From assembly GCA_026708055.1 (NCBI GenBank), contig JAPOVS010000087.1:1-61073 (forward strand): DNA of 61,073 nt, given 5' to 3'. Both the position numbers and the translations under genes were made by a program. The notes beneath the pieces are model-generated. The model had not been told where the DNA came from, made no database searches, and saw nothing but the letters and a program-made list of their open reading frames with translations. The DNA is from a bacterium (GTDB lineage Bacteria > Actinomycetota > Acidimicrobiia > Acidimicrobiales > CATQHL01). Shown in pieces: positions 6,003 to 57,066 of this stretch (position 1 is its first letter; each line of letters begins with the position of its first letter).

Positions 6003-6944
6003 GTGAACGACATACGCCAGGAGTGGCTTCAGAAGGACTACTACCGCGTTCTGGAGGTGGCGCCGGACGCACCCCAGGATGAGATCACCAAGGCCTACCG
6101 CTCGCTCGCTCGCCGGCTGCATCCGGATCGGAACCCCGACGATGCCCGCGCCGAGGAGCGCTTCAAGCAGGTCTCGGCCGCCTACGACGTGGTCGGCGAC
6201 GCCGACAAGCGTGCGCAGTACGACGAGATCCGCCGCCTCGCCGCCGGCGGGAATCCGTTCGCCGCCACGGGTCCGGGGGGAACGCACTCCTTCCAGTTCT
6301 CGGGCGCCGACGGGCTGAATGACCTGCTGGCGAACCTGTTCGGCGGCGGTGCCGGGCCGTTCGGCGGCGCGCCGGGCGGCAACCGGCCGCAGCGGGGACC
6401 GGACCACCAGGCACAGCTCTCCCTCTCGTTCTCCGAGGCGGTGAACGGGGTGACCAGGGAGGTCTCCCTGGGTGAGCGGTCCGACCGCCGGAAGACGAAG
6501 GTGCGGATCCCCGCAGGCGTCGACGACGGCCAGCGGATACGGCTGCGGGGCAAGGGCGGCGCAGGTGCCGACGGCGGCCCGCCGGGGGATCTCTACGTGA
6601 TCGTGCGTGTCGGCGACCACCCGCTGTTCGGGCGAGACGGCGACCATCTCACCCTGACCGTTCCCGTCAGCTTCAGCGAGGCCGCCGCCGGGGCGCGCAT
6701 CGCGGTTCCGACCTTCGAGGGTGACCCGGTGACGCTGCGCCTGCCGGCGGGCACCCCGTCCGGGCGGACCCTGCGCGTGCGCGGCCGCGGCGTGACGACC
6801 GACCACCGAACCGGTGACCTGCTCGTTACGGTGGAGGTCGTGGTGCCCAAGAAGCTCAACGCGGCCCAGCGCCGTGCCCTGGAGGAATTCGACGAGGCCA
6901 CCAAGGGCCCGCCGCCACGCGAGCACCTGGGAATGCCGTCTTGA
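6003..6944 (+). CDS. dnaJ: DnaJ-family co-chaperone without zinc fingers (class B / CbpA-like)
   Basis: Stimulates DnaK ATPase. The J domain spans about residues 10-75 (YYRVLEVAPDAPQDEI, with the HPD triad in RRLHPDRNPDD). A Gly/Phe-rich linker follows, and then the two C-terminal beta-barrel substrate domains (SLSFSEAVNGVTREVSLG, LRVRGRGV). The four CxxCxGxG repeats of class A DnaJ are absent, so this is a class B protein of 313 residues. Start: GTG 6003. A 12-bp direct repeat (AGCCAGTGAACG) places a second GTG 14 bases upstream in a frame that stops at once, so the later GTG is used here. It follows dnaK-grpE and is coupled to egtB (TGATG). Confidence 0.93.
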   Translation: MNDIRQEWLQKDYYRVLEVAPDAPQDEITKAYRSLARRLHPDRNPDDARAEERFKQVSAAYDVVGDADKRAQYDEIRRLAAGGNPFAATGPGGTHSFQFSGADGLNDLLANLFGGGAGPFGGAPGGNRPQRGPDHQAQLSLSFSEAVNGVTREVSLGERSDRRKTKVRIPAGVDDGQRIRLRGKGGAGADGGPPGDLYVIVRVGDHPLFGRDGDHLTLTVPVSFSEAAAGARIAVPTFEGDPVTLRLPAGTPSGRTLRVRGRGVTTDHRTGDLLVTVEVVVPKKLNAAQRRALEEFDEATKGPPPREHLGMPS

Positions 6945-8218
6945 TGTCGCCGGTCGGCACCCTGGCCGAGCGCTACACGGCCGTACGGGGCCTCACCGAG
7001 CAGTTGGCGGCGCCGCTGTCGCCGGAGGACCAGTGCATCCAGACGATGGCCGACGTGAGTCCCACCAAGTGGCACCGCGCCCACACCACCTGGTTCTTCG
7101 AGACGTTCCTGCTGAAGCCTCACCTCGAGGGCTACGGCGAGGCGGACCCTCTCTACCACTACCTCTTCAACTCCTACTACGAGGCGGCGGGCCCCCGGCA
7201 CCCCCGCCCGCAGCGGGGGATCATCTCCCGGCCCTCCGCCGCCGAGGTTGCCGACTACCGGAGGTGGGTCGACGGGGCGATGGTTCGCCTGCTGACCGGC
7301 GAGCCCCCCGAGCCCGTCGAGGACCTCGCGACCTTGGGCCTGAACCACGAGCAGCAGCACCAGGAACTCCTGCTCATGGACATCAAGCACGTCCTGAGCT
7401 GCAATCCCGCCCAGCCCGCCTACCGTCCCGCCCCGCCGCCGTCCTCGACGGTTGCCGGGTCGGGACCCGGCTGGGTCGGGTTCGAGGGTGGACGCCGGGC
7501 GATCGGACACGACGGCGGTTCCTTCGCCTTCGACAACGAGGGTCCGCGGCACGAGGTCCTGCTCAGGCCGTACGAGTTGTCCAGCCGTCTGGTCACCTGC
7601 GGCGACTGGCTGGCGTTCATGGCCGACGGCGGCTACCGGACTCCCACCCTCTGGCTGTCCGACGGGTGGGCGACGGCGCAGTCCTCGGACTGGTCCGCAC
7701 CGCTTTACTGGAGCCGGACCGGCGACGGCTTCAGCGCTGGCTCCTGGCACGTGTTCACCCTGGCCGGCCCGCGGGAGGTGCACCCCGACGACCCGGTCTG
7801 CCACATCTCGTACTACGAGGCCGACGCCTTCGCTCACTGGGCCGGCGCCCGCCTGCCCACCGAGGCCGAATGGGAGGCCGCCGCGGGCAGTGCTGCCGCG
7901 CGACCGGACAGCGATGACGCGAACTTCCTGTTCTCGGGCGCGCTTCACCCCCGTCCCGCCGCCGGCGACGGCCTCACGCAGCTGTTCGGCGACGTCTGGG
8001 AGTGGACCGCCAGCGCCTACAGCCCCTATCCCGGGTTCGCGCCCGCGGCGGGTGCTGTGGGCGAGTACAACGGCAAGTTCATGGTCAACCAGATGGTGCT
8101 GCGGGGCGGTTGCTGCGTCACCCCCGCCGGTCACGTCCGCGCCAGCTACCGCAACTTCTTCGCTCCGGGCACGCGCTGGCACTTCTCGGGCCTGCGCCTG
8201 GCCCGGGACAGCCGCTGA
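6944..8218 (+). CDS. egtB: Hercynylcysteine S-oxide synthase EgtB (iron-dependent sulfoxide synthase)
   Basis: Joins hercynine to a thiol substrate with O2 in ergothioneine synthesis. It has an N-terminal DinB-like four-helix domain and a C-terminal formylglycine-generating-enzyme fold. The iron ligands can be read: His47 in KWHRAHTTW, and His135/His139 in NHEQQHQE (HxxxHxE). The FGE part shows RLPTEAEWEAAAG and GDVWEWTAS. The ATG at 6944 overlaps the dnaJ stop by one base; a TTG at 6941 is possible but less likely. The 424-residue length is normal. egtD follows after 12 bases. No egtA, egtC or egtE lies near, so the sulfur donor (gamma-glutamylcysteine or cysteine) cannot be told. Confidence 0.94.
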   Translation: MSPVGTLAERYTAVRGLTEQLAAPLSPEDQCIQTMADVSPTKWHRAHTTWFFETFLLKPHLEGYGEADPLYHYLFNSYYEAAGPRHPRPQRGIISRPSAAEVADYRRWVDGAMVRLLTGEPPEPVEDLATLGLNHEQQHQELLLMDIKHVLSCNPAQPAYRPAPPPSSTVAGSGPGWVGFEGGRRAIGHDGGSFAFDNEGPRHEVLLRPYELSSRLVTCGDWLAFMADGGYRTPTLWLSDGWATAQSSDWSAPLYWSRTGDGFSAGSWHVFTLAGPREVHPDDPVCHISYYEADAFAHWAGARLPTEAEWEAAAGSAAARPDSDDANFLFSGALHPRPAAGDGLTQLFGDVWEWTASAYSPYPGFAPAAGAVGEYNGKFMVNQMVLRGGCCVTPAGHVRASYRNFFAPGTRWHFSGLRLARDSR

Positions 8219-8230
8219 CCCGTCACCACC

Positions 8231-9265
8231 GTGGTCTCGGGAGCACGCTCCGACGCGTTCGTCGCGGCCGGCGCCGGGAACCGCGGCTACACGATCAGCG
8301 TCTGCACCGACGAGGCCGCCCGGGACCGGGCGCTGGCGGCCGACGTGTCCGCGGGGCTCGGATCGATGCCGAAGGATCTTCCCCCCAAGTGGTTCTACGA
8401 CGACGAGGGCTCCCGGCTGTTCGGGGAGATCACCCGGCTCGCCGAGTACTACCTGACGCGCCGCGAGCACGAGATCCTGCGACGCGTCGCTCCGGAGATC
8501 GCCACGCTCTCGGGCGCCGGAACGCTCGTCGAATTGGGCTCGGGCTTCTCCGACAAGACCCGCCTGCTGCTCGACGCCATGGCCGCCGCCGGCACCCTCG
8601 AGGCGTTCGTTCCCTTCGACGTGAACGAGACGGCCCTCCGTGCCACGGCCGCCCGCGCAGCCGAGGCCTATCCCGGCGTGGCCACCCACGGCGTGGTGGG
8701 CGAGTTCGGTGCGGACCTGCGGTCGGTACCCAGCGAGGGACGGCGGCTGGTGGCCCTGCTGGGTAGCACCATCGGCAACTTCTCCGGACCCGAGCGCCGG
8801 AAGTTCCTCGCCGAGATCGCCGCCATGTCCTCGGCGGGCGAGACGTTCCTACTCGGTGCCGATCTGGTCAAGGAACGCAGTCGCCTGCTCGCCGCCTACG
8901 ACGACGCCGCCGGGGTCACGGCGGCGTTCAACCGCAACGTGCTGCGCGTCATCAACCGGCGTCTGGACGCCGACTTCGAGCCCCTGCGGTTCAGGCATGT
9001 GGCCACCTACGACGACGAGACCCAGCGGGTCGAGATGTGGCTGCGGTCCGAGGGCGCGCAGGTCGTGCACGTGCGACGCCTCGCCCTGCGCGCCGCCTTC
9101 GCCGACGGCGAGGCCATGCGCACCGAGGTCTCCGCCAAGTTCCGACCCGCCCAGGTCCTCGAGGAGTTGACGGCGGCCGGCTTCACGGTCCTGGCCCAGT
9201 GGCTGGACGGTGCCGGCGACTTCTCGCTCACGCTGGCGCAGCGCGCCAACGGGTCGCGACCGTAG
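8231..9265 (+). CDS. egtD: L-histidine N-alpha-methyltransferase EgtD
   Basis: Trimethylates histidine to hercynine using SAM, the first step of ergothioneine synthesis. The 344-residue protein has the family pattern: PKWFYDDEGSRLFGEITRLAEYYLTRRE near residue 55, the SAM-binding LVELGSGFSDKTRLLLDA, and the ALLGSTIGNF motif, ending in the TEVSAKF and SLTLAQR segments typical of EgtD. It starts at GTG 8231. It follows egtB and forms a minimal egtBD pair transcribed with the chaperone genes, which suggests a shared stress role. Confidence 0.95.
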   Translation: MVSGARSDAFVAAGAGNRGYTISVCTDEAARDRALAADVSAGLGSMPKDLPPKWFYDDEGSRLFGEITRLAEYYLTRREHEILRRVAPEIATLSGAGTLVELGSGFSDKTRLLLDAMAAAGTLEAFVPFDVNETALRATAARAAEAYPGVATHGVVGEFGADLRSVPSEGRRLVALLGSTIGNFSGPERRKFLAEIAAMSSAGETFLLGADLVKERSRLLAAYDDAAGVTAAFNRNVLRVINRRLDADFEPLRFRHVATYDDETQRVEMWLRSEGAQVVHVRRLALRAAFADGEAMRTEVSAKFRPAQVLEELTAAGFTVLAQWLDGAGDFSLTLAQRANGSRP

Positions 9266-13682: not shown

Positions 13683-14600
13683 CTACCGGGCGGGCGCCTC
13701 GTGCACGGCCAGGTGAAGCCGCAGGACGGCGGTCCAAAGGGCGGCCGCGCCGGCGATATGGACGCCGACGAGGAGCACGGGCACACCGGTGAAGTACTGC
13801 AGGTAGCCGACCGCGGCCTGCGCGCCGATCACCAGTACCACCAAGCGGGCGGCGGGGGCGTGCGGCGTCGCCCGGTGGCCCCGGCGCCGGAGCCGGAACG
13901 AGCCGCGCTCGGCACCGGCCCAGAGCAACAGCGCCACCGCGGCGCACAGCACCATGGCCCCGCCGTGCAGGCGGGCCAGGGACGGGATGTCGTACTGCAG
14001 CCGCTCGACATCGGCGTCACCACCATGCGGGCCGGCTCCGGTCAGCAACGTGCCGCTCACGATGGCCAGGACCGCCAGGACCACCAGCAGGCGCGTCAGG
14101 TGGCCCGCCGCCCGCGCCGGCGCGCCCGCCCCCCTCGGAGCCCCGTCGGGCAGACCGGCGCGGTGGTGCAACACGACGGCGTTGGCCACCAGCACCATCG
14201 ACAGCAGGAAGTGGGCGATGACCAACCACGGGGAGAGGTGGTACCACACGACCAGGCCCCCGAGGACCACCTGGCCGGCAACCCCCGCCACGAGCCCGAA
14301 CGCCAGTCCGACGAGGTCCTGCCGCCTGGGTCGCCGCAGCAGCGCACCGAGCACGGCGAGCGCCACGGCCAGCGACACCACGCCGGTAATGGCCCTGTTC
14401 ACGAACTCCACCAGGGCGTGGTACTCCAGGTCGGGGACGAACTGGTTCTCCTCGCAGGTGGGCCAGTCCGAGCAGCCCAGTCCGGAGCCGGTGAGGCGCA
14501 CCGCGCCACCGGTGATGATGATGAAGATCAGGGCCAGCAGGGCCAGCAGAGTGATACGGCGGTAGCCGGCCGGGCTGATTCCGTTCCTCCGCAGCGCCAT
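13683..14600 (-). CDS. ctaA: Heme A synthase (COX15/CtaA family)
   Basis: Membrane monooxygenase oxidising heme O to heme A for the oxidase encoded next door. The 305 residues have about eight membrane helices. The signature GGAVRLTGSGLGCSDWPTC follows the first helix, and the heme-binding histidines sit in EYHALVEFVNRA, VWYHLSPWLVIAHFLLS, LHGGAMVLC and VGVHIAGAAALW. It diverges from ctaB, which makes heme O, with a 96-bp shared promoter region, so heme A synthesis flanks the oxidase cluster. Confidence 0.94.
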   Translation of the reverse strand: MALRRNGISPAGYRRITLLALLALIFIIITGGAVRLTGSGLGCSDWPTCEENQFVPDLEYHALVEFVNRAITGVVSLAVALAVLGALLRRPRRQDLVGLAFGLVAGVAGQVVLGGLVVWYHLSPWLVIAHFLLSMVLVANAVVLHHRAGLPDGAPRGAGAPARAAGHLTRLLVVLAVLAIVSGTLLTGAGPHGGDADVERLQYDIPSLARLHGGAMVLCAAVALLLWAGAERGSFRLRRRGHRATPHAPAARLVVLVIGAQAAVGYLQYFTGVPVLLVGVHIAGAAALWTAVLRLHLAVHEAPAR

Positions 14601-14696
14601 CGGCGCTCAGCCTAGGAGCCGGCCGCAGTGCCCCTCGCCGCTCCATCAGCGTCGCGAGTGGAGTATTGGACACGCGGGTCTCGTACGCTTGCGCCG

Positions 14697-15572
14697 ATGC
14701 CTGCGACGAAAGCCCGGGCCACGATCGCGTCCTACGTGGCGCTGACCAAACCGCGCATCATCGAGCTGCTGCTCGTGACGACGGTTCCCACCATGATCGT
14801 TGCGCAGCGAGGCCTGCCCCCGGTGTGGTTGATCGGGGCGGTCATCGCCGGCGGGGCCCTCGCCGCCGGCGGCGCCAACGCGCTCAACATGGTCATCGAC
14901 CGCGACATCGACAGCATCATGCAGCGCACCCGGGACCGGCCCCTCGTCACCGGCGAGATAAGCCCGCGCAGCGCCCTGGCGTTCGCGGTCACCCTGGAGG
15001 TGGCGGCGTTCGTCTGGCTCTGGCTGATGGTGAACCTGCTCAGCGCGGTCCTGGCGGTGAGTGCCACGCTGTTCTACGTCTTCGTGTACAGCCTCTGGCT
15101 GAAGCGGCGGTCCGAGCGCAACATCGTCATCGGCGGAGCCGCCGGCGCGGTCCCCGTGCTCGTGGGCTGGACGGCCGTGACGGGCCGGCTGGACTGGGCG
15201 CCGCTGCTGCTGTTCGCGGTGATCTTCTACTGGACGCCACCCCACTTCTGGGCGCTGGCGGTGCGCTACCGCGATGACTACGCGCAGGTCGGGGTGCCGA
15301 TGCTGCCGGCGGTCCGCTCCATCCGGACCGTGGCCCTGCGCATCATCGCCTACACCGTGGTCCTCTGGGCCACGAGCGTCGCTTTCGGGTTCGTGGCCGA
15401 GTTGGGGACCCTCTACCTTGCGACCGCCCTGGTGACCGGCGTGATCTTCATCGCCCTGGGTGTCCGGTTGCTTCGCCATGGCACACCGCAGGTGGCGATG
15501 CGCCTGTTCAACTGGTCCATCACCTACATCGTGTTGCTGTTCGGGGCCATGGCTCTGGATCGGTTCGTCTGA
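14697..15572 (+). CDS. ctaB: Protoheme IX farnesyltransferase (heme O synthase)
   Basis: Integral membrane prenyltransferase converting heme B to heme O. Start: ATG 14697 (MPATKARATIASYVALTKPRIIELLLVTTVPTMI); the open frame reaches further upstream without family resemblance. This gives 291 residues with multiple membrane helices. The prenyl-diphosphate motif NMVIDRDIDSIMQRTRDRPL and the later YWTPPHFWALAVRYRDDY loop are intact. It diverges from ctaA and leads the oxidase cluster. Confidence 0.95.
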   Translation: MPATKARATIASYVALTKPRIIELLLVTTVPTMIVAQRGLPPVWLIGAVIAGGALAAGGANALNMVIDRDIDSIMQRTRDRPLVTGEISPRSALAFAVTLEVAAFVWLWLMVNLLSAVLAVSATLFYVFVYSLWLKRRSERNIVIGGAAGAVPVLVGWTAVTGRLDWAPLLLFAVIFYWTPPHFWALAVRYRDDYAQVGVPMLPAVRSIRTVALRIIAYTVVLWATSVAFGFVAELGTLYLATALVTGVIFIALGVRLLRHGTPQVAMRLFNWSITYIVLLFGAMALDRFV

Positions 15573-15747: not shown

Positions 15748-17463
15748 ATGACCGCGACCGAGACTCACGCTGCCGCCACGGACGAGCACGCCTCGGCCAC
15801 GCCGGCAGGCTCGCCGACCCCGCGGGGACTTGCGGGGATCCTGTCCAGCAGCGACCACAAGACGCTGGGGCGGATGTGGATCCTGGCGTCGCTGCTGCTC
15901 GGCACCTTCGTGCTGGTGTGCGGGCTGCTGTTGCACATCGAGCGCGCCAACCTGCCGGGTCTCGAGGTCTTCGCGGGCATCGAATCGTTCCGGCAGTTCT
16001 TCACGCTCTACCGGGTCGGTCTGGTCTTCCTGTTCGTCATGCCGTTGTGGATCGGTCTCGCCACGCACGTGGTCCCACTGCAGATCGGCGCCCGGGGTGT
16101 GGCCTTCCCGCGGGCGGCCGCGGCCGCCTTCTGGGGCTGGCTCACCGGGGCCGGCATCCTCATCGCCTCCTGGGCGATCGACGGGGGCCTTGCCGCCGGT
16201 GGCGAGCAGCGGGCCGTGGAGCTCTCCCTGCTCTCCTTCGCCCTGGTGGTGCTGTCGCTGCTGGGCGCCACGGGAGTGCTGCTCACCACCATGTGCACCC
16301 AGCGGCCGGCCGGCATGAGCCTGGAACGCATGCCGTTGTTCTCCTGGTCGGTGTTCGTGGCGGGTGCCGTGTGGCTCCTGAGCCTGCCCGTGCTGCTGGC
16401 CAACCTGGTCATCATGTGGATCGACCTGCGGGGTCCGAGCGCGGTGCGCTTCGGGGCCGGGCAGAACCTGTACGAGCAGGTCTCCTGGGTGTTCGACCAG
16501 CCCCAGGTGTTCGTGTTCGCAATCCCCGTGGTCGGTGTCGTGGGGGAGATCCTGCCGGTGGCCTTCGGCATGCCGCAGCGGCGCTGGGGCGTCATGCTCT
16601 CGCTCGTCGGTCTGGCCGGAGTGTTCAGTTTCGGTGCCGACCTGCAACGATTCTTCAGCCCGACGGCCCAGACGACGCCGCTCTACGTGGTCAGCGGCAT
16701 CGTCGTGGCGCTGGTGGTCGTGGCGCTGCTGGGAGGCTGGGCCGACCTGGGGCGCGGCGCCCGCCGCCTGCCCCGGCCCAGCGGGCACCTCGCCGTGGCG
16801 ATGTCGGCGCTGGGCGTGCTGGTCTTCGCGGCGATCGTGGGATTCATCCGGGTGCTCGGCGGGGCGGTCGGGTTCCTGCGGAGCTTCGCTCGGCACAACG
16901 AGTCCTGGCAGGGTGATCTGGACCGTGCCCTGGCGCCCCTGGACGATCTGCGGGGGACCATGGCCGGCGCGGGGCTGCTGGACCTCGTGGCGATGGCGGC
17001 CGTGCTCGGTGCCGTGGCCGGGCTCTTCTACTGGAGCCCCAAGATCTTCGGGCGCCGGGCCTCGCACGCCGCCGGCTTCGGCGCGGCGGCGATCCTGGGC
17101 GCGGCCGGCCTGTTGACGGGCCTGATGGGCCTCGTCGCCGGCTTCCTGGGCCAACCCGAACGCCCCAGCGCGAGCTTCACCTCGGGGGGTGCGGAGGCTG
17201 CGGCCATCCTCGCCGTCATCGGCGTGATCGGGGTCCTGTTGGCTATGGCGATCGTGCTGATCGTCACCCTGCGCGGCGCCGCCTCGCTCGCCCGGGGCGC
17301 CTCCACGGTTCCCGACCCCTGGGGCGGGCACACGATGGAATGGTTCGCCGCCTCGCCGCCCCCGCCGGACAACTTCGGTGACGAGCCGGCGGCTCCGGTG
17401 CGTTCGGCGCATCCTCTCTGGGACGCGCCGGCGCCGTCGACAGGCGAGAGAGGTGCCCCGTGA
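15748..17463 (+). CDS. Cytochrome c oxidase subunit I homologue lacking all heme and copper ligands
   Basis: 571 residues, about twelve membrane helices. It aligns end to end with the normal CtaD at 20318: SSSDHKTLGRMW at the start, VPLQIGARGVAFPR (115-122), RMPLFSWSVF (194-203), FYWSPKIFG and a C-terminal DPWGGHTMEWFAASPPP corresponding to DPWDARGLEWMTASPTP. Every redox ligand is replaced: heme a His94 is Tyr88; the HPEVY copper/Tyr motif is QPQVF (251-255); the HH pair is gone near 298-301; the HFH pair aligns with GLL. It therefore cannot bind heme a, heme a3 or CuB and should be a structural or regulatory pseudoenzyme. The frame is long and intact, so it is not a decaying gene. It overlaps the next gene by four bases (GTGA). 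Confidence 0.9.
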   Translation: MTATETHAAATDEHASATPAGSPTPRGLAGILSSSDHKTLGRMWILASLLLGTFVLVCGLLLHIERANLPGLEVFAGIESFRQFFTLYRVGLVFLFVMPLWIGLATHVVPLQIGARGVAFPRAAAAAFWGWLTGAGILIASWAIDGGLAAGGEQRAVELSLLSFALVVLSLLGATGVLLTTMCTQRPAGMSLERMPLFSWSVFVAGAVWLLSLPVLLANLVIMWIDLRGPSAVRFGAGQNLYEQVSWVFDQPQVFVFAIPVVGVVGEILPVAFGMPQRRWGVMLSLVGLAGVFSFGADLQRFFSPTAQTTPLYVVSGIVVALVVVALLGGWADLGRGARRLPRPSGHLAVAMSALGVLVFAAIVGFIRVLGGAVGFLRSFARHNESWQGDLDRALAPLDDLRGTMAGAGLLDLVAMAAVLGAVAGLFYWSPKIFGRRASHAAGFGAAAILGAAGLLTGLMGLVAGFLGQPERPSASFTSGGAEAAAILAVIGVIGVLLAMAIVLIVTLRGAASLARGASTVPDPWGGHTMEWFAASPPPPDNFGDEPAAPVRSAHPLWDAPAPSTGERGAP

Positions 17464-18074
17464 GCGAGCAGGCCGCTCCGGCGACCGAGATGGTGGCACC
17501 GGCGATCGCCCCGCGCCGCCGGACCCTGCAGGTGGGCACGGGTTTCGCCGCGGCGGCCGTGTTGATGTACTTCGGTGGCCTGCTGGGCGTCTACTTCTCC
17601 GAGCGGGCCGATTTCCTGCGGGCGAACCCCGGCGAGTCGTGGATCCCCTCCGGGGCCCGGGTCGAGCTGACCGCGCCGACGGTGATGGCCTGGACGCTGC
17701 TGCTGAGCGTCGTCACCATGCAGTGGGTGGTGCACGCCACCAAGCGGGACGACCGGCGCCACACCCTCATCGCCCTGGTCGTCACGGCCGTCTTCGGCGT
17801 GGCGGTGATCAACCAGACCGCCTTCCAGTACCGCCAGATGGGGCTGGCGATCGACGGGGGCAGCCTGGCGGCACCGCTCATCTACACGATCTCGGGCAGT
17901 CATCTCGCCCTGGTCGTCGTGGCCCTCGGCTACCTGTTCGTCATGGCGGTGCGGGCCCTCACCGCGCCGGCGCCCAGCGTCCACCTCGACGGCATGTCGG
18001 CGGCGGCCATGCTCTGGCACGTCATGGTGTTCGTGTACCTGGTCATCTGGGTCGGACTCTTCGTGACGAAGTGA
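17460..18074 (+). CDS. Divergent cytochrome c oxidase subunit III homologue
   Basis: 204 residues, five or six membrane helices. It resembles the genuine CtaE at 22408 in helix order and in two places: ISGSHLALVVVALG matches LTGFHGAHVTIGIV, and AAAMLWHVMVFVYLVIWVGLFV matches LIGLYWHFVDIVWILIFTIIY. The GTG start overlaps the stop of the ligand-less subunit I gene, so the two are coupled as ctaD-ctaE are. Together they look like a duplicated oxidase core without catalysis. The role is inferred from homology and position only. Confidence 0.75.
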   Translation: MSEQAAPATEMVAPAIAPRRRTLQVGTGFAAAAVLMYFGGLLGVYFSERADFLRANPGESWIPSGARVELTAPTVMAWTLLLSVVTMQWVVHATKRDDRRHTLIALVVTAVFGVAVINQTAFQYRQMGLAIDGGSLAAPLIYTISGSHLALVVVALGYLFVMAVRALTAPAPSVHLDGMSAAAMLWHVMVFVYLVIWVGLFVTK

Positions 18075-18131: not shown

Positions 18132-18965
18132 GTGCTGACTCCGGGTTTCAAGCTCTTCTTCGGGTTCGGCGCCCTCGCCGCCGTGGGCGCCATCATCTAC
18201 GGGATCGCAACCGGTGATCCCGCCGGCGCGGACTACCTGGGCGTGGTGGATCGTGACGCCTGGAAGGGTGTCATCAGCCTGGGATGGCAAGGCGGCGTCG
18301 GGGAACACACAGGTTTCATCGTGCTGGTCTTCGCCGCCCTGGTCGGCGCCGGCCTGGGCTGCATGCTCGTGGCGTTCCGCGACGCCGACGCCGAGTCCGT
18401 GGGCGAGCTTGCCCCGACCGGCGAGACGCCGCCGAGCGAGGCGCCGGCCCATCCCTCCTACTGGCCGCCGCTGCTGGCCTTCGCGGCGGCCGTGGTCGTG
18501 ATCGGACTCGTCACCCACGCAGCCATCTTCGTGATCGGGCTCATCCTGGCCGGCGTCGTGGCGTTCGAGTGGATGGTCACCGCCTGGGCGGATCGGGCCA
18601 CTGGCGACGCGGCGGCGAATCGGGCACTGCGCAACGGGCTCATGCATCCCATCGAGATCCCGGTGCTGGGCGCCGCCGGTGTGGCCATCCTGGTGGTCGG
18701 CGGCTCGCGCGTCCTGCTGGCCGTGAGCGAGTTCAGCGCCGTCTGGATCGCTGCCGGGGTCTCCGCGGTGATCCTGCTGGCGGCAATGCTGTTCGCCGCC
18801 CGGCCCCACATCGCCCGCTCGGTCATCACCACCGTGCTGGCCTTCGCCGCCGTGGCGATCGTGGCCGCCGGCATCGTGGCGACCGCGGTCGGCCCCTACG
18901 ATCACGGCCACGCGGGCGAGCACGGCACCGACGAGGCCGGCGAGATCCACGAGGGCGACGAGTAA
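18132..18965 (+). CDS. Membrane protein of the oxidase cluster with CtaD-tail-like PSYWP module
   Basis: 277 residues with about seven membrane helices and a His/Asp/Glu-rich tail. Residues of roughly 108-150 (HPSYWPPLLAFAAAVVVIGL) resemble the extra two-helix module at the C-terminus of the CtaD encoded at 20318 (SPSYWPVVVALGLPLVAYGL), which corresponds to the small actinobacterial oxidase subunit. The rest is unrecognised. GTG start at 18132. It overlaps ctaC by one base (TAATG). With the two preceding genes it forms a three-gene insert between ctaB and ctaC; it may be the third subunit of that complex. Confidence 0.7.
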   Translation: MLTPGFKLFFGFGALAAVGAIIYGIATGDPAGADYLGVVDRDAWKGVISLGWQGGVGEHTGFIVLVFAALVGAGLGCMLVAFRDADAESVGELAPTGETPPSEAPAHPSYWPPLLAFAAAVVVIGLVTHAAIFVIGLILAGVVAFEWMVTAWADRATGDAAANRALRNGLMHPIEIPVLGAAGVAILVVGGSRVLLAVSEFSAVWIAAGVSAVILLAAMLFAARPHIARSVITTVLAFAAVAIVAAGIVATAVGPYDHGHAGEHGTDEAGEIHEGDE

Positions 18966-20242
18966 TGGACGAGCACGCCGCCGGCCGTTTCGGGAGGCCT
19001 CTCTGGCGGCGCCTCCGGCTGGCGCTGATCGCGCCGGCGGTGGCGCTGGCGCTGACCGCATGCGCCGACGAGCACCCGCTGGACACCCTCACGGAGGCCG
19101 GCCCGGACGCGCGGGAGATCAACGACCTGTTCTTCCCCGTCCTCGGGGTCGCCGTCGTCGTCTTCTTCCTGGTGCAGGGTGCCGTCATCTACCTGGTCCT
19201 CAAGTACCGGGCGCGACGCCGGGACTCGTCTGCGGCGGCCACGGGCGGCGAGGGTGACGGCGACGACCTCTACGGGGACGACGAGTATCCCGAGCAGGTT
19301 CACGGCAATCTCCGGCTGGAGCTGGCCTGGACCATCATCCCCACGATCCTGCTGGCGGTCATCTCGGTGTTCGCGCTCATCTCCCTCGTCGAGTTGAACG
19401 AGGTGTCCGCCGCTGAGGACGATCTCCGGGTCACCGTCGTGGGCCAGCAGTGGTGGTGGGAGTTCCAGTACCACCTGGACGGCGACACCTCCACGGCGCC
19501 GGACATCGTGACCGCGAACGAGTTGGTGATGCCGGTGCGCCAGCAGGTGCCCCTGGAGATCACCTCGCGGGACGTGATCCACTCGTTCTGGATCCCGCGG
19601 CTGAACGGCAAGCGCGACGCCGTCCCGGGCCGTACCCATCCGTGGGTGATCGAGGCCGACGAGCCGGGCCGCTACATGGGCCAGTGCACCGAGTTCTGCG
19701 GGCTCTCGCACGCCTACATGCGCATGTACGCCGTCGTGCTGGAGCCCGCCGAGTGGGAGGAGTGGGTGCAGGGCCAACTGGTGGACGCCGCGCCCCTGGA
19801 ACCCACCGATCCCGGTTACGAGGGCCAGGAGGTCTTCCTGGCGAACTGTGCCAACTGTCACGTCGTCAACGGTGTGACCGACGTGAACCTCGACGGTCGC
19901 CTCGACGGTACGGCCGACTACGCCGGCACCGGCGACTTCGACTCCGAGCCCATCACCTCGGCACTCGTGGCGGGCGCGGCCCCCAATCTGACCCACCTGG
20001 CGAGCCGCACCACGTTCGCGGGCTCCATCTTCGACCTCTACGAGAACCGAGCCAAGTACATCCCCTACCTCGAGGTGGCTGAGCGGGGCGACCTGAACCG
20101 AGGCGACCTCGAAGCCTGGATCCGCAACGCCCCCGAGCGGAAGGCCAACGACGCCGACGGCGCCCGCGGCATGACCGCTTTCCCGGGCCTCACCGAGGGC
20201 GACATCGACGCGTTGGTCGAATATCTGATGACCCTGCGCTAG
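18965..20242 (+). CDS. ctaC: Cytochrome c oxidase subunit II fused to cytochrome c (caa3 type)
   Basis: 425 residues. A signal peptide ends in a lipobox with Cys33 (LALTAC); two membrane helices follow (about 57-78 and 120-141). The periplasmic CuA domain has WWWEFQY (162-169) and ligands His206, Cys241, Cys245, His249 and Met252 (CTEFCGLSHAYM). A cytochrome c domain follows with CANCH at 295-299 and a late Met (RGMTAFPGLT). The fused heme marks a caa3-type oxidase accepting electrons from the bc complex or its cytochrome. ATG 18965 overlaps the preceding stop. Confidence 0.96.
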   Translation: MDEHAAGRFGRPLWRRLRLALIAPAVALALTACADEHPLDTLTEAGPDAREINDLFFPVLGVAVVVFFLVQGAVIYLVLKYRARRRDSSAAATGGEGDGDDLYGDDEYPEQVHGNLRLELAWTIIPTILLAVISVFALISLVELNEVSAAEDDLRVTVVGQQWWWEFQYHLDGDTSTAPDIVTANELVMPVRQQVPLEITSRDVIHSFWIPRLNGKRDAVPGRTHPWVIEADEPGRYMGQCTEFCGLSHAYMRMYAVVLEPAEWEEWVQGQLVDAAPLEPTDPGYEGQEVFLANCANCHVVNGVTDVNLDGRLDGTADYAGTGDFDSEPITSALVAGAAPNLTHLASRTTFAGSIFDLYENRAKYIPYLEVAERGDLNRGDLEAWIRNAPERKANDADGARGMTAFPGLTEGDIDALVEYLMTLR

Positions 20243-20317: not shown

Positions 20318-22411
20318 ATGACCACCACCTCCGAACCCCCGCTGCAACTCACCGCAGGCGAGCAGATGGTGCGGCCCTCGACGTCGCTCGGGGTGTTCTC
20401 GCGGCCGAGGGGTGACACAGGCTGGCAGAGCTGGCTCTTCACCGTCGATCACAAGCGCATCGGCATCATGTACGGCGCCGCGGCGCTGCTGTTCCTGGTG
20501 ATCGGCGGCATCGAGGCGCTGCTTATCCGGCTGCAGCTGGCCGTTCCCGGGGGCAACGTGCTCAGCGAGGACGCCTACAACCAGGTCTTCACCATGCACG
20601 GCGTCACGATGGTGTTCCTGGTGATCATGCCGATGGCCGCCGCCTTCGCCAACTACCTGCTGCCGCTGCAGATCGGCGCCCGGGACGTGGCCTTCCCCCG
20701 GCTCAACGCCTTCAGCCTGTGGGCCTTCCTGGCCGGCGGCATCTTCCTGAACACCTCGTGGTTCCTCGGCGGCGCCCCCGACGGCGGCTGGTTCGGCTAC
20801 GCGCCCAACAGCGGCCTCGTCTACTCGCCGAGCAACGGCATGGACTTCTACGCCCTGGGTCTGCAGATCGCCGGCATCGCCTCGCTGGTCAGCGCCATCA
20901 ACCTCATCACGACGGTGCTCAACATGCGCGCCCCCGGCATGACCCTGTTCCGGATGCCGGTGCTCTCCTGGATGCTGCTCGTCGTGCAGTTCCTGCTGCT
21001 GTTCGCCATCCCGGTGATCACCGTCGCTCTGTTCCTGCTGAGCTTCGACCGGCTGTTCGACGCCAACTTCTTCAACGTGGCGGCCGGTGCCGACCCGCTG
21101 CTGTGGCAGCACCTCTTCTGGATCTTCGGGCATCCCGAGGTGTACATCCTCATCCTGCCCGCCTTCGGCATCATGTCCGAGGTCATCCCCGTCTTCAGCC
21201 GCAAGCCCATCTTCGGCTACCCGTTCATGGTCTTCTCGGGGATCGCCATCGGCTTCATGGGCTGGGGGGTGTGGGCCCACCACATGTTCACCTCCGGCAT
21301 GGGGCCGGTCTCGGTGGCGGCCTTCTCGCTCTCCACCATGTTCATCGCCGTGCCCACAGGGGTGAAGATCCTCAACTGGTTGGCGACCATGTGGGGCGGC
21401 CGGGTGCGGTTGACCACGGCGATGCTGTACTCCGTCGGCGCGGTTGCGATGTTCACCATCGGCGGCCTGTCGGGGGTGACCCACGCCATCGCGCCCGCGG
21501 ACACCCAGCAGACCGACACCTACTACATCGTCGCCCACTTCCACTACGTGATATTCGGGGGATCCCTCATGGGCATGCTCTCGGGCATCTACTTCTGGTG
21601 GCCGAAGATGTTCGGACACAAACTCGACGAGAAGCTCGGCAAGATCGGCTTCTGGGTTCTGCTCATCGGCTTCAACCTCACGTTCGGGCCGATGCACATA
21701 CTGGGTCTGCAGGGCATGTCGCGCCGCATCCACAGCTATGCCGCCGACTCCGGATTCAACCTGTGGAACATGTTCGCCACCGTGGGTTCGTTCGTCGTCG
21801 CCGTGGGCCTTCTGCTGTTCTTCTGGAACATCGGCGTCAGCCGCCGCCGCGCCCGCGGCGCGCCGCCGGTGGGTCCCGATCCGTGGGACGCGCGCGGCCT
21901 GGAGTGGATGACCGCCTCGCCGACGCCCGTCCACAACTTCGACCGCGACATCACCGTCACGCGCCAGGACGAGTTCTGGCACCGCAAGTGGCGCATCGGC
22001 GACGACGGCCAGGTGACGCGCATCGCCCGGGCCGAGGACGTGGCGCACGACGGCAGCGCCACCGACGTGCACCTGCCCTCGCCCTCGTACTGGCCGGTGG
22101 TGGTCGCCCTCGGGCTGCCCCTGGTGGCCTACGGGCTCATCTACAACCTCTGGATCACCGGCGTGGGCGCGCTGTTGATCCTGGGCGGCCTGTACGCCTG
22201 GGTGTTCGAGCCGCCCGACGATCCCGAGGCCCACGCGCACGACGACCACCACGACGCCGACCCCTCCGACGACCCCGACAACGGTGCCTCCGGCGGCGGG
22301 ACGTCCACGAACGGTGAGGGTGGACCCGACGGCGGTGACGGCACGCGCCAGCTGGCCGGAGCGGGAGTCGCCGGCGGTCCGTCCGCGCAGGCGACGGAGG
22401 AGCAATCGTGA
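20318..22411 (+). CDS. ctaD: Cytochrome c oxidase subunit I with C-terminal extra helices
   Basis: Catalytic oxygen-reducing subunit, 697 residues. All ligands are present: His94 (TMHGVTM) for heme a; His272 and Tyr276 (HPEVY), His321 and His322 (AHHMF) for CuB; His407 and His409 (AHFHYVIFGG) for hemes a3 and a. After the usual twelve helices and the DPWDARGLEW segment the protein carries about 130 more residues: a loop, PSYWP, two membrane helices (about 590-640) and an Asp/His/Gly-rich tail. The added part looks like a fused actinobacterial subunit IV (CtaF) module. ATG 20318; the 75-bp gap after ctaC has no promoter I recognise. It overlaps ctaE by four bases. Confidence 0.97.
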   Translation: MTTTSEPPLQLTAGEQMVRPSTSLGVFSRPRGDTGWQSWLFTVDHKRIGIMYGAAALLFLVIGGIEALLIRLQLAVPGGNVLSEDAYNQVFTMHGVTMVFLVIMPMAAAFANYLLPLQIGARDVAFPRLNAFSLWAFLAGGIFLNTSWFLGGAPDGGWFGYAPNSGLVYSPSNGMDFYALGLQIAGIASLVSAINLITTVLNMRAPGMTLFRMPVLSWMLLVVQFLLLFAIPVITVALFLLSFDRLFDANFFNVAAGADPLLWQHLFWIFGHPEVYILILPAFGIMSEVIPVFSRKPIFGYPFMVFSGIAIGFMGWGVWAHHMFTSGMGPVSVAAFSLSTMFIAVPTGVKILNWLATMWGGRVRLTTAMLYSVGAVAMFTIGGLSGVTHAIAPADTQQTDTYYIVAHFHYVIFGGSLMGMLSGIYFWWPKMFGHKLDEKLGKIGFWVLLIGFNLTFGPMHILGLQGMSRRIHSYAADSGFNLWNMFATVGSFVVAVGLLLFFWNIGVSRRRARGAPPVGPDPWDARGLEWMTASPTPVHNFDRDITVTRQDEFWHRKWRIGDDGQVTRIARAEDVAHDGSATDVHLPSPSYWPVVVALGLPLVAYGLIYNLWITGVGALLILGGLYAWVFEPPDDPEAHAHDDHHDADPSDDPDNGASGGGTSTNGEGGPDGGDGTRQLAGAGVAGGPSAQATEEQS

Positions 22412-23049
22412 CCGATGTCGCCGATCCCGAAGCGGCCGTGACCGCCCCGGCCGCGGGCGGCCACGAGGCACCCGCGCACCCGCCCACGACCACGGGCATG
22501 TCCCACAACAAGGTGGCGATGTGGCTGTTCCTGGGGTCGGAGTGCCTGCTGTTCGGCGCCCTCATCTCCGTCTACATGTTCGCCAAGTCCCGGCTGCCGG
22601 CCGGCGAGATCGGCCCGAACGACGTCTTCGACATCCCGTTCACGTCGGTCAGCTCGTTCGTGCTGCTGATGAGCTCGCTGACCATGGTGCTGGCGCTGTC
22701 GGCCCTGACGCGGGGCGAGGAGCGGGGCTTCCGGGTGTGGATCGTGGCCACGGCGCTGCTCGGCGGCACGTTCATCGCCGGGCAGGTCTACGAGTTCACC
22801 GTCTTCTACAACCTCGGACTGGGCTACACCACGAACATCTTCGGGTCGGCCTTCTACACCCTGACCGGGTTCCACGGCGCCCACGTCACCATCGGCATCG
22901 TGATGCTGATGTCGGCGCTGGTGGCCAGCCTGCGCGGCCGCCTGAGCCCCCGGAACGCCGAGACCGTCGAGCTCATCGGCCTGTACTGGCACTTCGTCGA
23001 CATCGTGTGGATCCTCATCTTCACGATCATCTACCTTTTCCCGCAGTAG
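22408..23049 (+). CDS. ctaE: Cytochrome c oxidase subunit III
   Basis: 213 residues. A His/Pro-rich N-terminal tail of about 30 residues is followed by five membrane helices. Typical elements are MWLFLGSECLLFGALI, GQVYEF, FYTLTGFHGAHVTIGI and LYWHFVDIVWILIFTIIYLF. GTG start overlaps the ctaD stop. It is the standard partner of ctaD and is distinct from the divergent homologue at 17460. Confidence 0.96.
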   Translation: MTDVADPEAAVTAPAAGGHEAPAHPPTTTGMSHNKVAMWLFLGSECLLFGALISVYMFAKSRLPAGEIGPNDVFDIPFTSVSSFVLLMSSLTMVLALSALTRGEERGFRVWIVATALLGGTFIAGQVYEFTVFYNLGLGYTTNIFGSAFYTLTGFHGAHVTIGIVMLMSALVASLRGRLSPRNAETVELIGLYWHFVDIVWILIFTIIYLFPQ

Positions 23050-23064: not shown

Positions 23065-23439
23065 ATGAGCCAGACACAGCCGGCGCCGCCCGCCGAGGAG
23101 GCCGTGCCGCACGACGTGGCCGAGGCCGCCCACGACGACCACGGCGAGGGCCACGAGCACCCCTCGGACCGGCAGTACGTCAAGATCGCCCTGATTCTCG
23201 GCGGCCTCACCGCGCTCGAGGTCTTCACCTACTTCGAGTCGGTGCACAACCTCGGCGACGCGGCGATCTACGTGATCCTGATCGTGCTGATGGTCCTCAA
23301 GTTCATCTACGTGGTGGCCTGGTTCATGCACCTGAAATTCGATTCGGTGCTGTTCAAGAGGATCTTCGTAGCGGGCATCGTGCTGGCCCTGGGGGTCTAT
23401 CTGGTCATGTTGACCGCGTTCCGGATCTGGGGAGCCTGA
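23065..23439 (+). CDS. Cytochrome c oxidase subunit IV (bacterial COX4/CyoD-like)
   Basis: 124 residues: a His/Asp/Glu-rich soluble N-terminus of about 45 residues, then three membrane helices (KIALILGGLTALEVFTYF, AAIYVILIVLMVLKFIYVVAWFMHLKFD, FVAGIVLALGVYLVMLTAF). The helix pattern and the WFMHLKFD loop are characteristic of the prokaryotic subunit IV family, which stabilises the CuB site during assembly. GGGGAGG lies upstream of the ATG at 23065. It follows ctaE by 15 bases. Note that CtaD also carries a fused subunit IV-like module. Confidence 0.9.
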   Translation: MSQTQPAPPAEEAVPHDVAEAAHDDHGEGHEHPSDRQYVKIALILGGLTALEVFTYFESVHNLGDAAIYVILIVLMVLKFIYVVAWFMHLKFDSVLFKRIFVAGIVLALGVYLVMLTAFRIWGA

Positions 23440-52150: not shown

Positions 52151-53401
52151 TCAGTCGGGCCAGAGCCAGGCGGCGCGGGCTGCGGCCTTGTAGATGTACT
52201 CCGGGGCGCCGGGGTCGTCGGAGTCCATGAGGTTGGCCATGATGCGCAGCGCCCACTCCATGAGGGTCTGCGACTGCATCCCGAACTGCACGAGGCGGCT
52301 GATGAGGCGGGGCCGGCCGATGGCGTAGGCGAAGAGCCGGGCCACCTTGAAGTAGGCGCCGTACTCGGCCTCGAGGAGTTCGGGATAGCGCGACAGCGCC
52401 AGGCCGTCGTCGCAGATCACCGCCTCGGCCACCAGCTCGGCGGCGAGGCGGCCCGTCTCGTAGGCGTAGTCGATCCCCTCGCCGTTGAACGGGTTCACCG
52501 AGCCGGCCGCGTCGCCCACGATCAGGAAGTTCGGGCCCGCCTTGGGGTTCACCGAGCCGGCCATCGGCAGGCGGCCTCCCACCGGGGCTGCCAGCGGCGC
52601 GGCAGGGTCGAGCCCCCAGCGGTCGGGCGCGGCGTAGGCCCACTCCTCCATCAGGTGGCTGGTGTTCACGTTCCGCCAGTCCCGATAGGAGGTGAGCAGG
52701 CCGATGCCCACGTTCACCGTCCCGTCACCGAGGGGGAAGATCCAGCCGTAGCCGGGCAGCGTGGCGCCGTTGCGGTCGCGCACGTCCAGGGCGCTCTCGA
52801 TCCACGGATCGTCACCGTTGGGACTCTCGAAATAGCTGCGGATGGCCATTCCCTGGGGCCAGGAGCGCTCGCGCCGGCAGCCCAGCCCTCGCCCCACCCG
52901 GGAGTTCGCGCCGTCGGCGACCACCAGATAGGAGGCCTCCACGTCGCTGCTCTCGCCGGAGGCGCGATCCAGCACGCGCACCCCCCGGCAGAGGCTGCCG
53001 GCCAGCAGCGGCTCGGTGGCCTCGGCCCCGTGCTGTACCAGCGCCCCCGCCTTGCGGGCGTGCTCCAGCACCGCGGCGTCCAGGGTGCTGCGCCGCACCA
53101 CGTAGCCGTGGGAGGGGTAGATCGGATGCTCGGGCCAGGGGAGTTCCCGGGTGTGGCCACCGGCGACGGCCCGCAGGCCGTCGAAGCGGTGGTAGGACTC
53201 GATCTCGGCTCCGAGGCCCATGTCGACGAGTTGCTTGACTGCCCGGGGCGTCAGGCCGTCGCCGCAGGTCTTGTCACGTGGGAACTGCTTGCGCTCCAGC
53301 ACCACCACGTCGAGGCCCTGCAGTGCCGCCCAGTAGGCGGTGGCCGCGCCGGCTGGTCCGCCGCCGACGACGACCAGATCGTGGCGGTGGGCGATGGTCA
53401 G
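52151..53401 (-). CDS. Geranylgeranyl/menaquinone reductase-family FAD oxidoreductase, CTG start proposed
   Basis: 416 residues if started at CTG 53401, which overlaps the cytochrome c stop (CTGA). This frame encodes the FAD motif DLVVVGGGPAGAATAYWAA; the first ATG/GTG/TTG in frame is GTG 53308, which would remove it, and a TGA lies a few codons upstream. Other family features are TCGDGLTPRAVKQL, VVADGANSRVGR, and NFLIVGDAAGSVNPFNGEGIDYA. Relatives saturate isoprenoid chains, including MenJ on menaquinone in mycobacteria; a gene next to bc-complex and nuo genes fits quinone tailoring. Confidence 0.85.
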   Translation of the reverse strand: MTIAHRHDLVVVGGGPAGAATAYWAALQGLDVVVLERKQFPRDKTCGDGLTPRAVKQLVDMGLGAEIESYHRFDGLRAVAGGHTRELPWPEHPIYPSHGYVVRRSTLDAAVLEHARKAGALVQHGAEATEPLLAGSLCRGVRVLDRASGESSDVEASYLVVADGANSRVGRGLGCRRERSWPQGMAIRSYFESPNGDDPWIESALDVRDRNGATLPGYGWIFPLGDGTVNVGIGLLTSYRDWRNVNTSHLMEEWAYAAPDRWGLDPAAPLAAPVGGRLPMAGSVNPKAGPNFLIVGDAAGSVNPFNGEGIDYAYETGRLAAELVAEAVICDDGLALSRYPELLEAEYGAYFKVARLFAYAIGRPRLISRLVQFGMQSQTLMEWALRIMANLMDSDDPGAPEYIYKAAARAAWLWPD

Positions 53402-54213
53402 GCCCCGTCGTCGGCTGCCAGGAGTGGTGCCAGGAACTCCGCCACGTCACCGGCGGTCACGTTCTCGTCGAACTGCTCGGGGAGTTCCAGGGTCCCGGCG
53501 GCCAGCAATTCGTCCACGAGCGGCGCCAGGGTGGCGGCGACGTCGCTCTCGCCGTGGGTGACCCGCTCGTAGAGCACGACCGCCAGGATCTCCGTGCCGC
53601 TCAACTCGTCCCAGTGGCCGGGCATGTCAGCGAACCACCCGGCCTCCCGGCCACGCTCGGGCGAGCCGTACGGATTGCCCTCGCCGGTGCCGTCGGTGGC
53701 GATGGCCACCCAGGTGACGTGCTGGGCCAGACCCAGGTTCTCGGGATCGTCGGGGAAGGTCAGTACCACTTCACCGTCGTTCAACTGGGGGCCGGTCCCG
53801 CTGCCGCCACCCGAGGCGAGGTGGCAGACCGCGCACTGCGCGGCGTACACCTCGGCGCCGTCGGCCAGGATGCCGGTTGCGGCCCGGGTGGGCTCCTCCA
53901 AGGTGCCGACGTACATGAACACCCAGATGGGCAGGAACAGCAGGACCGGCATCACCCAGTAGGGGATCTTGTTGCGCCCCATGGCCGCCTGCACCCAGGG
54001 TTTGGGCGGCGGGGGCGGCGGCGCCGGCGCCGCCGGGGGAATCGCCGGCAGGGGAGACGTCGCCGGAGCGGGCACCGCGGGCGCGCCGGCCGTGGCCGGG
54101 GCTGCGGGTGCCGCGCCTTCGGGGGGAGAGCCTGCGGTGGGTCCGGCCTCGCCGGTCAACTCCAAGCGTCGCTGGCGCGATCGCTCGAGCAGATACTCGG
54201 GTACTTCGGTCAT
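53398..54213 (-). CDS. Membrane-anchored monoheme cytochrome c
   Basis: 271 residues. A cytosolic N-terminus begins MTEVPEYLLERS and continues through a long Pro/Ala-rich stretch to about 72. One membrane helix lies at 85-103, then a periplasmic cytochrome c domain with CAVCH at 127-131; the Met ligand is probably in WFADMPGHWDELS. It overlaps the flavoprotein gene downstream. It diverges from the bc-complex operon across a region with a Rex operator, so it may be a partner of that complex. The N-terminal motif recurs in the cytochrome b C-terminal subunit at 56286. Confidence 0.85.
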   Translation of the reverse strand: MTEVPEYLLERSRQRRLELTGEAGPTAGSPPEGAAPAAPATAGAPAVPAPATSPLPAIPPAAPAPPPPPPKPWVQAAMGRNKIPYWVMPVLLFLPIWVFMYVGTLEEPTRAATGILADGAEVYAAQCAVCHLASGGGSGTGPQLNDGEVVLTFPDDPENLGLAQHVTWVAIATDGTGEGNPYGSPERGREAGWFADMPGHWDELSGTEILAVVLYERVTHGESDVAATLAPLVDELLAAGTLELPEQFDENVTAGDVAEFLAPLLAADDGA

Positions 54214-55460: not shown

Positions 55461-56261
55461 TTGGCTCCCAGACTCCCCACAGCAGACGACGTTCGCCGCA
55501 TGGGCAGCCAGCTCGGCGGTAAGGCGTCCGACCTCATGGACCAGGTCCAGGGATCGCAGGCCTGGACGTCGATCTTCCGGCCCGGGTCGATCTTCCGCAA
55601 GGGGTACACCGACAGCCCGCGGAACCGCTCCTACGTCATCATGAACAGCGTCCTGTACCACCTGCACCCGGTGAAGGTGAAGCGCCACGGCGTGCGGGTG
55701 AGCTACACCCTGTGCCTGGGTGGGCTCAGCTTCTTCCTGTTCATCCTCCTGACCGTCACGGGCATCTTCCTGATGTTCTTCTACCGACCCACCGCGGCGC
55801 AGGCCTGGGACGACATCTACATCCTGCAGACCGAGGTGGCCTTCGGGCTGCTGGTGCGGAACATCCACCGCTGGGGCGCTCACCTCATGGTGCTCACGGT
55901 GTTCCTGCACATGGCCCGCGTCTTCTACCACGGCGCCTACAAGCCGCCCCGCGAGTTCAACTGGGTGATCGGCGTGATCCTGCTGACGCTCACCCTGCTG
56001 CTGTCGTTCACCGGCTACCTGCTGCCCTGGGACCAGTTGGCGCTGTGGGCCGTCACCGTCGGGACCAACATGATGGGGTTCACCCCCGTGTTCGGCGACC
56101 AGGTGAGGTTCGTGCTGCTCAGCGGCGTGGAGATCGGGACGGACACACTGCTGCGGTGGTATGTGCTACACGTTCTGATGTTACCATTTGTTTTGATCAT
56201 TTTCCTTGCGGTCCACTTCTGGCGGGTCCGCAAGGACGGCGGGATCTCCGGACCGCTGTAG
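55461..56261 (+). CDS. Cytochrome b N-terminal subunit (b6-like)
   Basis: Quinol-oxidising heme b subunit, 266 residues, four membrane helices. Heme ligands are in [21 protein letters not shown] (His-x13-His) and [18 protein letters not shown] (His-x14-His); the 13/14 spacing is that of cytochrome b6 rather than bc1. The start is TTG 55461 or ATG 55500; the first 60 residues are a soluble extension. The C-terminal part of cytochrome b is a separate gene, as in b6f complexes. Confidence 0.92.
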
Positions 56262-56285
56262 GCCGGTGCGAGGAATCGACGAGCC

Positions 56286-57056
56286 ATGACCGAGGTACCC
56301 GAGCACCTGCTGCGGCGCGCCAAGGAGGCCCGCGAGCGCTTGGAGGACTCCGGCGAGTCCGCCGAGGCTCCCGCGGCACCGGACGCCGGCCCGCCGCCCG
56401 CGGATCCGACTGGGTCCACCGCGGCCGCCGGCGACGAGGAGAAGATCCCCGCGCACCTGCTGGATCGCTCACGCTCGGCTTCCGAGCAGGCCGCCATGGC
56501 CCCGGCGGCGCCGGGCGGACCCGTCGCCCCGGCCCCGCCGAGCCTGCCCACCGGCCCCGGCGGGCATACCCAGCGCCTGCTGACCGTCGTGAAGTCGGGG
56601 TCCATCCAGGACGTCAAGGCCATGCCGCAGGACCGGGTGCACGTCTGGCCGCACCTCCTGCTGGGGGAGTTCGTGGCCTCGCTGTTCATCACGGCGTTCC
56701 TGCTGATCTTCTCGGTCTTCGTGAACGCCCCCCTGCTGGAGTTGGCGAACGTCAACGAGACCCCCAACCCCTCCAAGGCGCCGTGGTACTTCTTGGGTCT
56801 GCAGGAACTGCTGACGATGTTCCACCCCATGGTGGCCGGCGTGACCATTCCCGGGATCGCTCTGTTCCTGCTGATCCTGGCCCCCTACATCGACCGCAAC
56901 AAGGAGAAGGCCCCGGAGAAGCGCAAGTTCGCCGTCTCACTGATGACCGTGCACCTCATGTTCTGGGCCGTGCTGGTCATGATCGGCTCGTTCTTCAGGG
57001 GTCCGGGCTTCAACTTCATCTTCCCGTGGCAAGACGGGCTCTTCTTCGACTTCTGA
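56286..57056 (+). CDS. Cytochrome b C-terminal subunit (subunit IV-like)
   Basis: 256 residues. The first 100 are soluble and Pro/Ala-rich, with two copies of a short motif: VPEHLLRRAKEARERL at the start and IPAHLLDRSRSASE at about 60. Then come DRVHVWPHLLLGEF and three membrane helices, with NPSKAPWYFLGLQELL corresponding to the PEWY quinol-site loop; the Glu of PEWY is replaced (APWY). It partners the b6-like gene 25 bases upstream. Confidence 0.9.
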   Translation: MTEVPEHLLRRAKEARERLEDSGESAEAPAAPDAGPPPADPTGSTAAAGDEEKIPAHLLDRSRSASEQAAMAPAAPGGPVAPAPPSLPTGPGGHTQRLLTVVKSGSIQDVKAMPQDRVHVWPHLLLGEFVASLFITAFLLIFSVFVNAPLLELANVNETPNPSKAPWYFLGLQELLTMFHPMVAGVTIPGIALFLLILAPYIDRNKEKAPEKRKFAVSLMTVHLMFWAVLVMIGSFFRGPGFNFIFPWQDGLFFDF

Positions 57057-57066
57057 GGCACGTGCC

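Follow-up and report, generated by a model that had tools for sequence, protein, structure and literature searches.

A subunit I homologue without heme or copper ligands heads a putative pseudo-oxidase cassette in the caa3 operon of Acidimicrobiales

Introduction

Subunit I of the heme-copper oxidases is defined by its histidine ligands. In a 61,073-nucleotide stretch of DNA from a bacterium of the Acidimicrobiales (contig JAPOVS010000087.1; the whole stretch is referred to below as the window), a caa3 oxidase operon contains a gene for a subunit I homologue that has none of these ligands. This raises the question of whether such a gene is maintained by selection and, if so, what its product could be used for. 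A ligand-free clade that is selected, widespread and located in an oxidase operon would represent a pseudoenzyme branch of the principal respiratory oxidase, and no description of a comparable metal-free subunit I homologue was found in the literature searched. The first-pass annotation of this DNA, made from the sequence alone, had proposed that the gene was kept for a non-catalytic purpose. Here, the gene is considered together with features beyond that annotation, namely, the degenerate subunit III gene that follows it, a CtaF-like third gene, and a cupredoxin domain in early-branching forms of the latter.

Results

Loss of the active site in psCtaD

The gene at 15,748–17,463 (+), here named psCtaD, forms a clean frame of 571 codons without a stop, as previously annotated, and its frame, profiles, alignment and model identify the product as a subunit I homologue of 571 residues without heme or CuB ligands. 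The protein scores 112.9 bits against Pfam COX1 (PF00115; cut-off 34.8) over residues 40–382 and a second, C-terminal stretch, and its best relatives in the PDB are actinobacterial CtaD structures (6hwh, E 8e-38). Against the CtaD-specific equivalog model (TIGR02891), it reaches 179.5 bits versus a cut-off of 670.75. Alignment with the intact CtaD of the window, whose gene lies 4.6 kb away, confirmed the earlier observation that all six ligand histidines and the cross-linked tyrosine are replaced: H94 corresponds to Y88, H272 to Q251, Y276 to F255, H321 to Q300, H322 to R301, H407 to L410, and H409 to D412. The claim that the motifs of CtaD are kept from end to end holds for the fold, which is retained, but sequence divergence is greatest in the C-terminal third of the protein.

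The residues expected of an A-type oxygen reductase are also largely missing. The tyrosine of the HPEVY motif, which is Phe in the window protein, is present in 24 of 50 psCtaD sequences; the D-channel aspartate (D123), N130 and the K-channel lysine (K350) are retained in 0% of psCtaD, N112 in 2%, and the HPEVY glutamate (E274) in 10%. Of 118 columns with almost no variation in CtaD, 34 are shared by at least 80% of psCtaD sequences, whereas 47 persist in no more than 20%, with the propionate arginines R469/R470 among the lost columns; the roles of the channel and propionate residues are those known for A-type oxidases. The kept columns include the N-terminal DHK, the PLQIG-AFPR loop, R186/G189 and the C-terminal DPW..EW..PP..NF, and they are more common outside helices (19 of 37 non-helix columns versus 24 of 81 helix columns). 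This pattern fits a surface that may have been retained for partners around a core that was free to change.

The COX1 profile and the subunit I fold place psCtaD, by descent, in the heme-copper oxidase superfamily; as an enzyme, the window protein with its six replaced histidines does not belong there, and, read by its residues, psCtaD stands outside every catalytic class. Since both ligands and channels are lost, O2 reduction and proton pumping by the known routes are ruled out for psCtaD and for the cassette to which it belongs.

A three-gene cassette ahead of the caa3 genes

The annotated location of psCtaD within the oxidase operon is correct, the gene lying directly 5' of its cassette partners and ctaC-ctaD-ctaE. 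It is followed by psCtaE (17,460–18,074, +), a degenerate subunit III homologue whose start overlaps the psCtaD stop by 4 bp (GTGA), and by a gene for a CtaF-like membrane protein of 277 residues (18,132–18,965, +). This three-gene cassette stands directly upstream of the intact caa3 genes: ctaC (18,965–20,242, +), which encodes subunit II with a CuA motif and a fused cytochrome c (NCBIfam CoxB, 194 bits, above the cut-off); ctaD (20,318–22,411, +), which by profiles and alignment encodes a catalytic subunit I with all ligands; and ctaE (22,408–23,049, +), an intact subunit III by its profile. The start codon of ctaC shares a single base with the stop of the CtaF-like gene (TAATG). By sequence appearance only, the small membrane protein encoded next (23,065–23,439, +) is probably of the caa3 subunit IV type. 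The same kind of evidence points to two assembly genes on the other side, a ctaB-like heme O synthase gene just upstream of psCtaD (14,628–15,572, +) and a divergent ctaA-like heme A synthase gene (13,683–14,600, −). Because the gene after psCtaD encodes a degenerate subunit III and the third gene a subunit-IV-like protein, the whole cassette is involved; it duplicates subunits I, III and IV but includes no subunit II. The intact CtaD itself carries a C-terminal extension that corresponds to the second half of Cyt_c_ox_IV (PF12270, residues 585–631), and it ends in a low-complexity acidic tail.

The assignment of psCtaE rests on its Pfam COX3 score of 43.2 bits (cut-off 23.8), which identifies a subunit III; its score against the NCBIfam CtaE equivalog is 50 bits, far below the cut-off of 190. 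For the third gene, the CtaF-like family profile aligns with actinobacterial CtaF (hhalign 95%, E 2.8e-8) over columns 27–161, that is, in the N-half only. The window protein itself matches no Pfam family well and is under the PF12270 cut-off; 3 of 19 family members match PF12270 weakly, and the third-gene protein of the locus L119 matches it directly (E 2.9e-5). The C-half resembles the membrane anchor of cupredoxins that follow the caa3 operons of other Acidimicrobiia orders. In the window, this protein lacks a cupredoxin domain bearing Cys-His-Met ligands, and its C-terminus is only a short His- and acid-rich tail; the domain is found in early-branching orthologues. In L035, L040–L043, L107, L108 and L056, the third gene has a C-terminal cupredoxin that shows the Cys-x2-His-Met pattern (PF13473 at E 4e-11 in L108). 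The predicted structure of the CtaF-like protein was poor (pLDDT 62, pTM 0.41), and no conclusion was drawn from it.

Several neighboring features were also observed. In one family (f7, L115–L121), the third gene has a tail of cupredoxin-like length without the Cys-His-Met ligands, possibly a degenerate cupredoxin. In other orders of Acidimicrobiia, a membrane-anchored cupredoxin stands behind the caa3 operon (8,656–9,444 in L095, with similar loci L096–L114); the anchor of this cupredoxin and the C-half of the CtaF-like protein are homologous. A TlpA-like thioredoxin is encoded between the CtaF-like gene and ctaC in some heme-retaining loci (L040, 8,591–9,232; L042, 8,052–8,600; L049, 9,226–9,798).

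Elsewhere in the window, a bc-type complex (55,461–59,141, +), recognized from its ORFs and a PF13631 match of 130.8 bits, comprises a split cytochrome b, a Rieske protein and a cytochrome c with two CXXCH motifs, and it is likely the electron donor to the caa3 oxidase. Its cytochrome b is divided into two ORFs of 266 and 256 residues. The second of these (56,286–57,056, +) and a cytochrome c protein (53,398–54,213, −) share the same unusual start motif (MTEVPEYLLERSRQRRLEL / MTEVPEHLLRRAKEARERL), which is repeated internally in the cytochrome b ORF as KIPAHLLDRSR. The ORFs at 6,941–9,265 resemble those for ergothioneine synthesis (EgtB-like and EgtD-like) in appearance only.

Occurrence across the Acidimicrobiales

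Orthologues of psCtaD were found at 78–98% identity in seven other genomes of the genus and at 57% in another genus of the family; across the order, identities are lower, mostly 30–44%, again without stops. The gene order psCtaD-psCtaE-CtaF-like-CtaC-CtaD-CtaE occurs in approximately 45 examined loci, all from Acidimicrobiales, and on nearly every sufficiently long contig; the clearest exception is L107, in which the cassette and ctaC are several kilobases apart. The orthologue search proposed in the first-pass annotation thus finds the position conserved. Since the gene is present in seven other genomes of the genus and in dozens of genera at the same place, it is not a product of chance or misassembly, and the stop-free orthologues within the genus exclude a local mutation. 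Those relatives that carry names are MAGs of Acidimicrobiia, with Candidatus Microthrix and Microthrixaceae among them.

When 395 genomes of the class were searched, the third gene, used as a marker, gave strong matches (>90 bits) in 96 genomes, all Acidimicrobiales. Some families of the order (f23 and f33) gave no marker matches, and in the other orders of the class, the matches cover the C-half only; in the loci read from those orders, the oxidase is present and psCtaD is absent. Among 396 sampled genomes from the phylum, no psCtaD-type protein was found outside the order, the best matches there keeping the complete ligand set, although window-type forms too diverged for the query could have escaped this search.

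Origin of the cassette and order of ligand loss

All psCtaD sequences form one clade (support 100/100), which is separate from the operon CtaDs and attaches between two canonical CtaD groups. A simple tandem duplication of the neighboring ctaD is not favored by this separation, nor by the gene order of the nearest canonical relatives, CtaC-CtaD-CtaE-CtaF, which matches that of the cassette. The subunit III tree contains 15 rows without an assigned label, and nothing rests on it.

The ligand losses are common to the orthologues, as the proposed search was to establish: the CuB set is kept in none of 50 psCtaD, and the single His at one CuB position in three of them is probably due to chance. 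The heme ligands are more persistent, with the low-spin pair in 11 of the 50, the high-spin His in 8 and all three in 7. The first-pass annotation had regarded histidine-bearing orthologues as a sign of local mutation or misassembly; heme histidines do occur in some early-branching orthologues, but the CuB set and the proton channels are absent from all of them, and the losses are therefore staged within one clade and not a local mutation. The heme-keeping sequences include the earliest branches, yet L132 and others sit deeper in the clade. Under the assumption that heme ligands are never regained, a quick tree implies about ten losses of the low-spin pair, and unordered parsimony requires at least five changes; these counts are rough because many branches are weakly supported. 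Gln is the most common substitute at three ligand columns, occupying the H276 column in 28, the H325 column in 32 and the H411 column in 15 of the 50 sequences. A cupredoxin on the third gene accompanies 7 of the 11 heme-keepers versus 1 of the 39 others (Fisher p 2e-5), and this association is not significant in tree-aware pairs from the same set. It appears from these patterns that CuB and the proton channels were lost first and the heme ligands later and repeatedly, in a module that probably began redox-active and became metal-free.

Selection and predicted structure

The dN/dS of psCtaD is 0.14–0.28 (seven comparisons with the window and two pairs among relatives, all within the same genus or family, dS 0.17–1.4), well under one; the corresponding values are 0.12–0.25 for psCtaE, 0.11–0.21 for the CtaF-like gene and 0.10–0.17 for CtaD. 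An AlphaFold model of psCtaD, computed from an alignment of 33 orthologues (psCtaD rows only), shows the whole subunit I fold with pLDDT 85 and pTM 0.89. This predicted fold superposes on E. coli bo3 subunit I with a Z score of 40.5 (498 residues, 2.8 Å) and on M. smegmatis CtaD with a Z score of 40.2 (500 residues). The dN/dS and structure checks suggested in the first-pass annotation, together with the shared losses and the conserved position, uphold its view that the gene is kept for a non-catalytic purpose.

Discussion

Possible roles of the cassette

The active site is lost in a protein that remains under purifying constraint, and the cassette is very probably a selected pseudo-oxidase. 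Among its possible roles, the most likely order is a structural partner first, transient assembly second, and docking or relay third. In the structural-partner reading, to which we give about an even chance, the cassette would be a duplicate of subunits I, III and IV in which the fold was kept while CuB and the proton channels disappeared, followed on several occasions by the hemes. Its proteins, made from the caa3 operon and lacking their own subunit II, would bind stably to the caa3 oxidase or to a bc-caa3 assembly, perhaps forming the inactive half of a pseudo-symmetric hetero-oligomer, and the module might keep the fused cytochrome c and the bc complex positioned or stabilize the enzyme. 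The conserved gene order, the 4-bp and 1-bp overlaps, the single clade, the dN/dS values and the predicted fold all fit such a partner. On the other hand, the place in the operon would by itself also be consistent with an assembly factor or a separate complex, and the full I, III and IV-like set could form a complex of its own. In principle, the oxidase needs no cassette, because a closely related caa3 CtaD serves other orders of the class that lack one. Physical association with the caa3 oxidase and a structural role are what we infer. The fuller proposal, that a CuB-less diheme cytochrome with its own cupredoxin gave rise to a metal-free I-III-IV module, now a permanent hetero-oligomer partner of the active caa3 oxidase across the Acidimicrobiales, is tentative.

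Alternatively, the cassette could be a transient assembly factor, a template or placeholder that helps CtaC, CtaD and CtaE to be inserted, to receive heme and copper or to find one another, and that leaves the finished enzyme. Its location between ctaB and ctaC and the TlpA-like thioredoxin inside the operon of some heme-retaining members agree with this, as does the overlap of the third gene with ctaC, through which stoichiometry with the oxidase may be tuned. However, a 12-helix protein with copies of subunits III and IV is large for a chaperone, and the heme ligands and copper-ligand cupredoxin of the early-branching forms point to an original redox role and not to a chaperone role; we consider the assembly reading unlikely. 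That redox origin is the starting point of a further possibility, in which an early diheme, CuB-less subunit I and its cupredoxin relayed electrons to caa3 or another acceptor; this is improbable, as is its extension to the window lineage, in which the docking surface alone would remain. The retained heme histidines and the cupredoxins that accompany them speak for a relay, but the association loses significance once relatedness is allowed for, and the window lineage has neither hemes nor cupredoxin, so a relay cannot be its present redox function.

The ion or proton movement suggested in the first-pass annotation fares worse. Reuse of the fold as a conduit without redox chemistry would suit the transmembrane fold, predicted to be intact, and the polar Gln often found at the ligand columns; however, it is unsupported because the D-channel aspartate and K-channel lysine are missing throughout psCtaD, the other channel positions being kept rarely or never, and we consider it very improbable. 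A decaying paralogue carried without function, which very fast divergence and repeated heme-ligand loss might suggest, is the least probable reading and is largely refuted by dN/dS well under one, in copies that lack stops, occupy the same position in many families and have a fold predicted to be intact.

The clade offers a living series, from forms without CuB that have both hemes and a cupredoxin, through forms with the low-spin heme only, to forms with no metal, which lets one ask what uses the oxidase fold has once catalysis is removed and test directly if both halves of an oxidase oligomer must be active.

Comparison with known systems

psCtaD resembles the A-type subunit I (CtaD/CoxA; PF00115, TIGR02891) in its full fold, its N- and C-terminal signature motifs and its operon context, but it lacks the heme and CuB ligands, the cross-linked Tyr and the D and K channels. 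The cassette as a whole is similar to the CtaD-CtaE-CtaF cassette of actinobacterial aa3 oxidases, sharing the order I-III-IV and a third gene whose N-half is related to CtaF. In contrast to that cassette, it has no subunit II of its own, its subunits I and III are degenerate, and its subunit IV is fused to a second membrane domain, with a cupredoxin added in early-branching members. The membrane-anchored cupredoxins of other Acidimicrobiia orders share their anchor, by homology, with the C-half of the CtaF-like protein; however, their operons contain neither psCtaD nor psCtaE, and the window CtaF-like protein has no cupredoxin domain. In cytochrome bd, the CydAA' and CydB proteins treated by Murali, Gennis and Hemp in 2021 are reportedly oxidase subunit paralogues with reduced cofactors that pair with an active subunit. 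They belong to an unrelated protein superfamily, and the cassette described here has lost every metal ligand and carries second copies of subunits III and IV as well.
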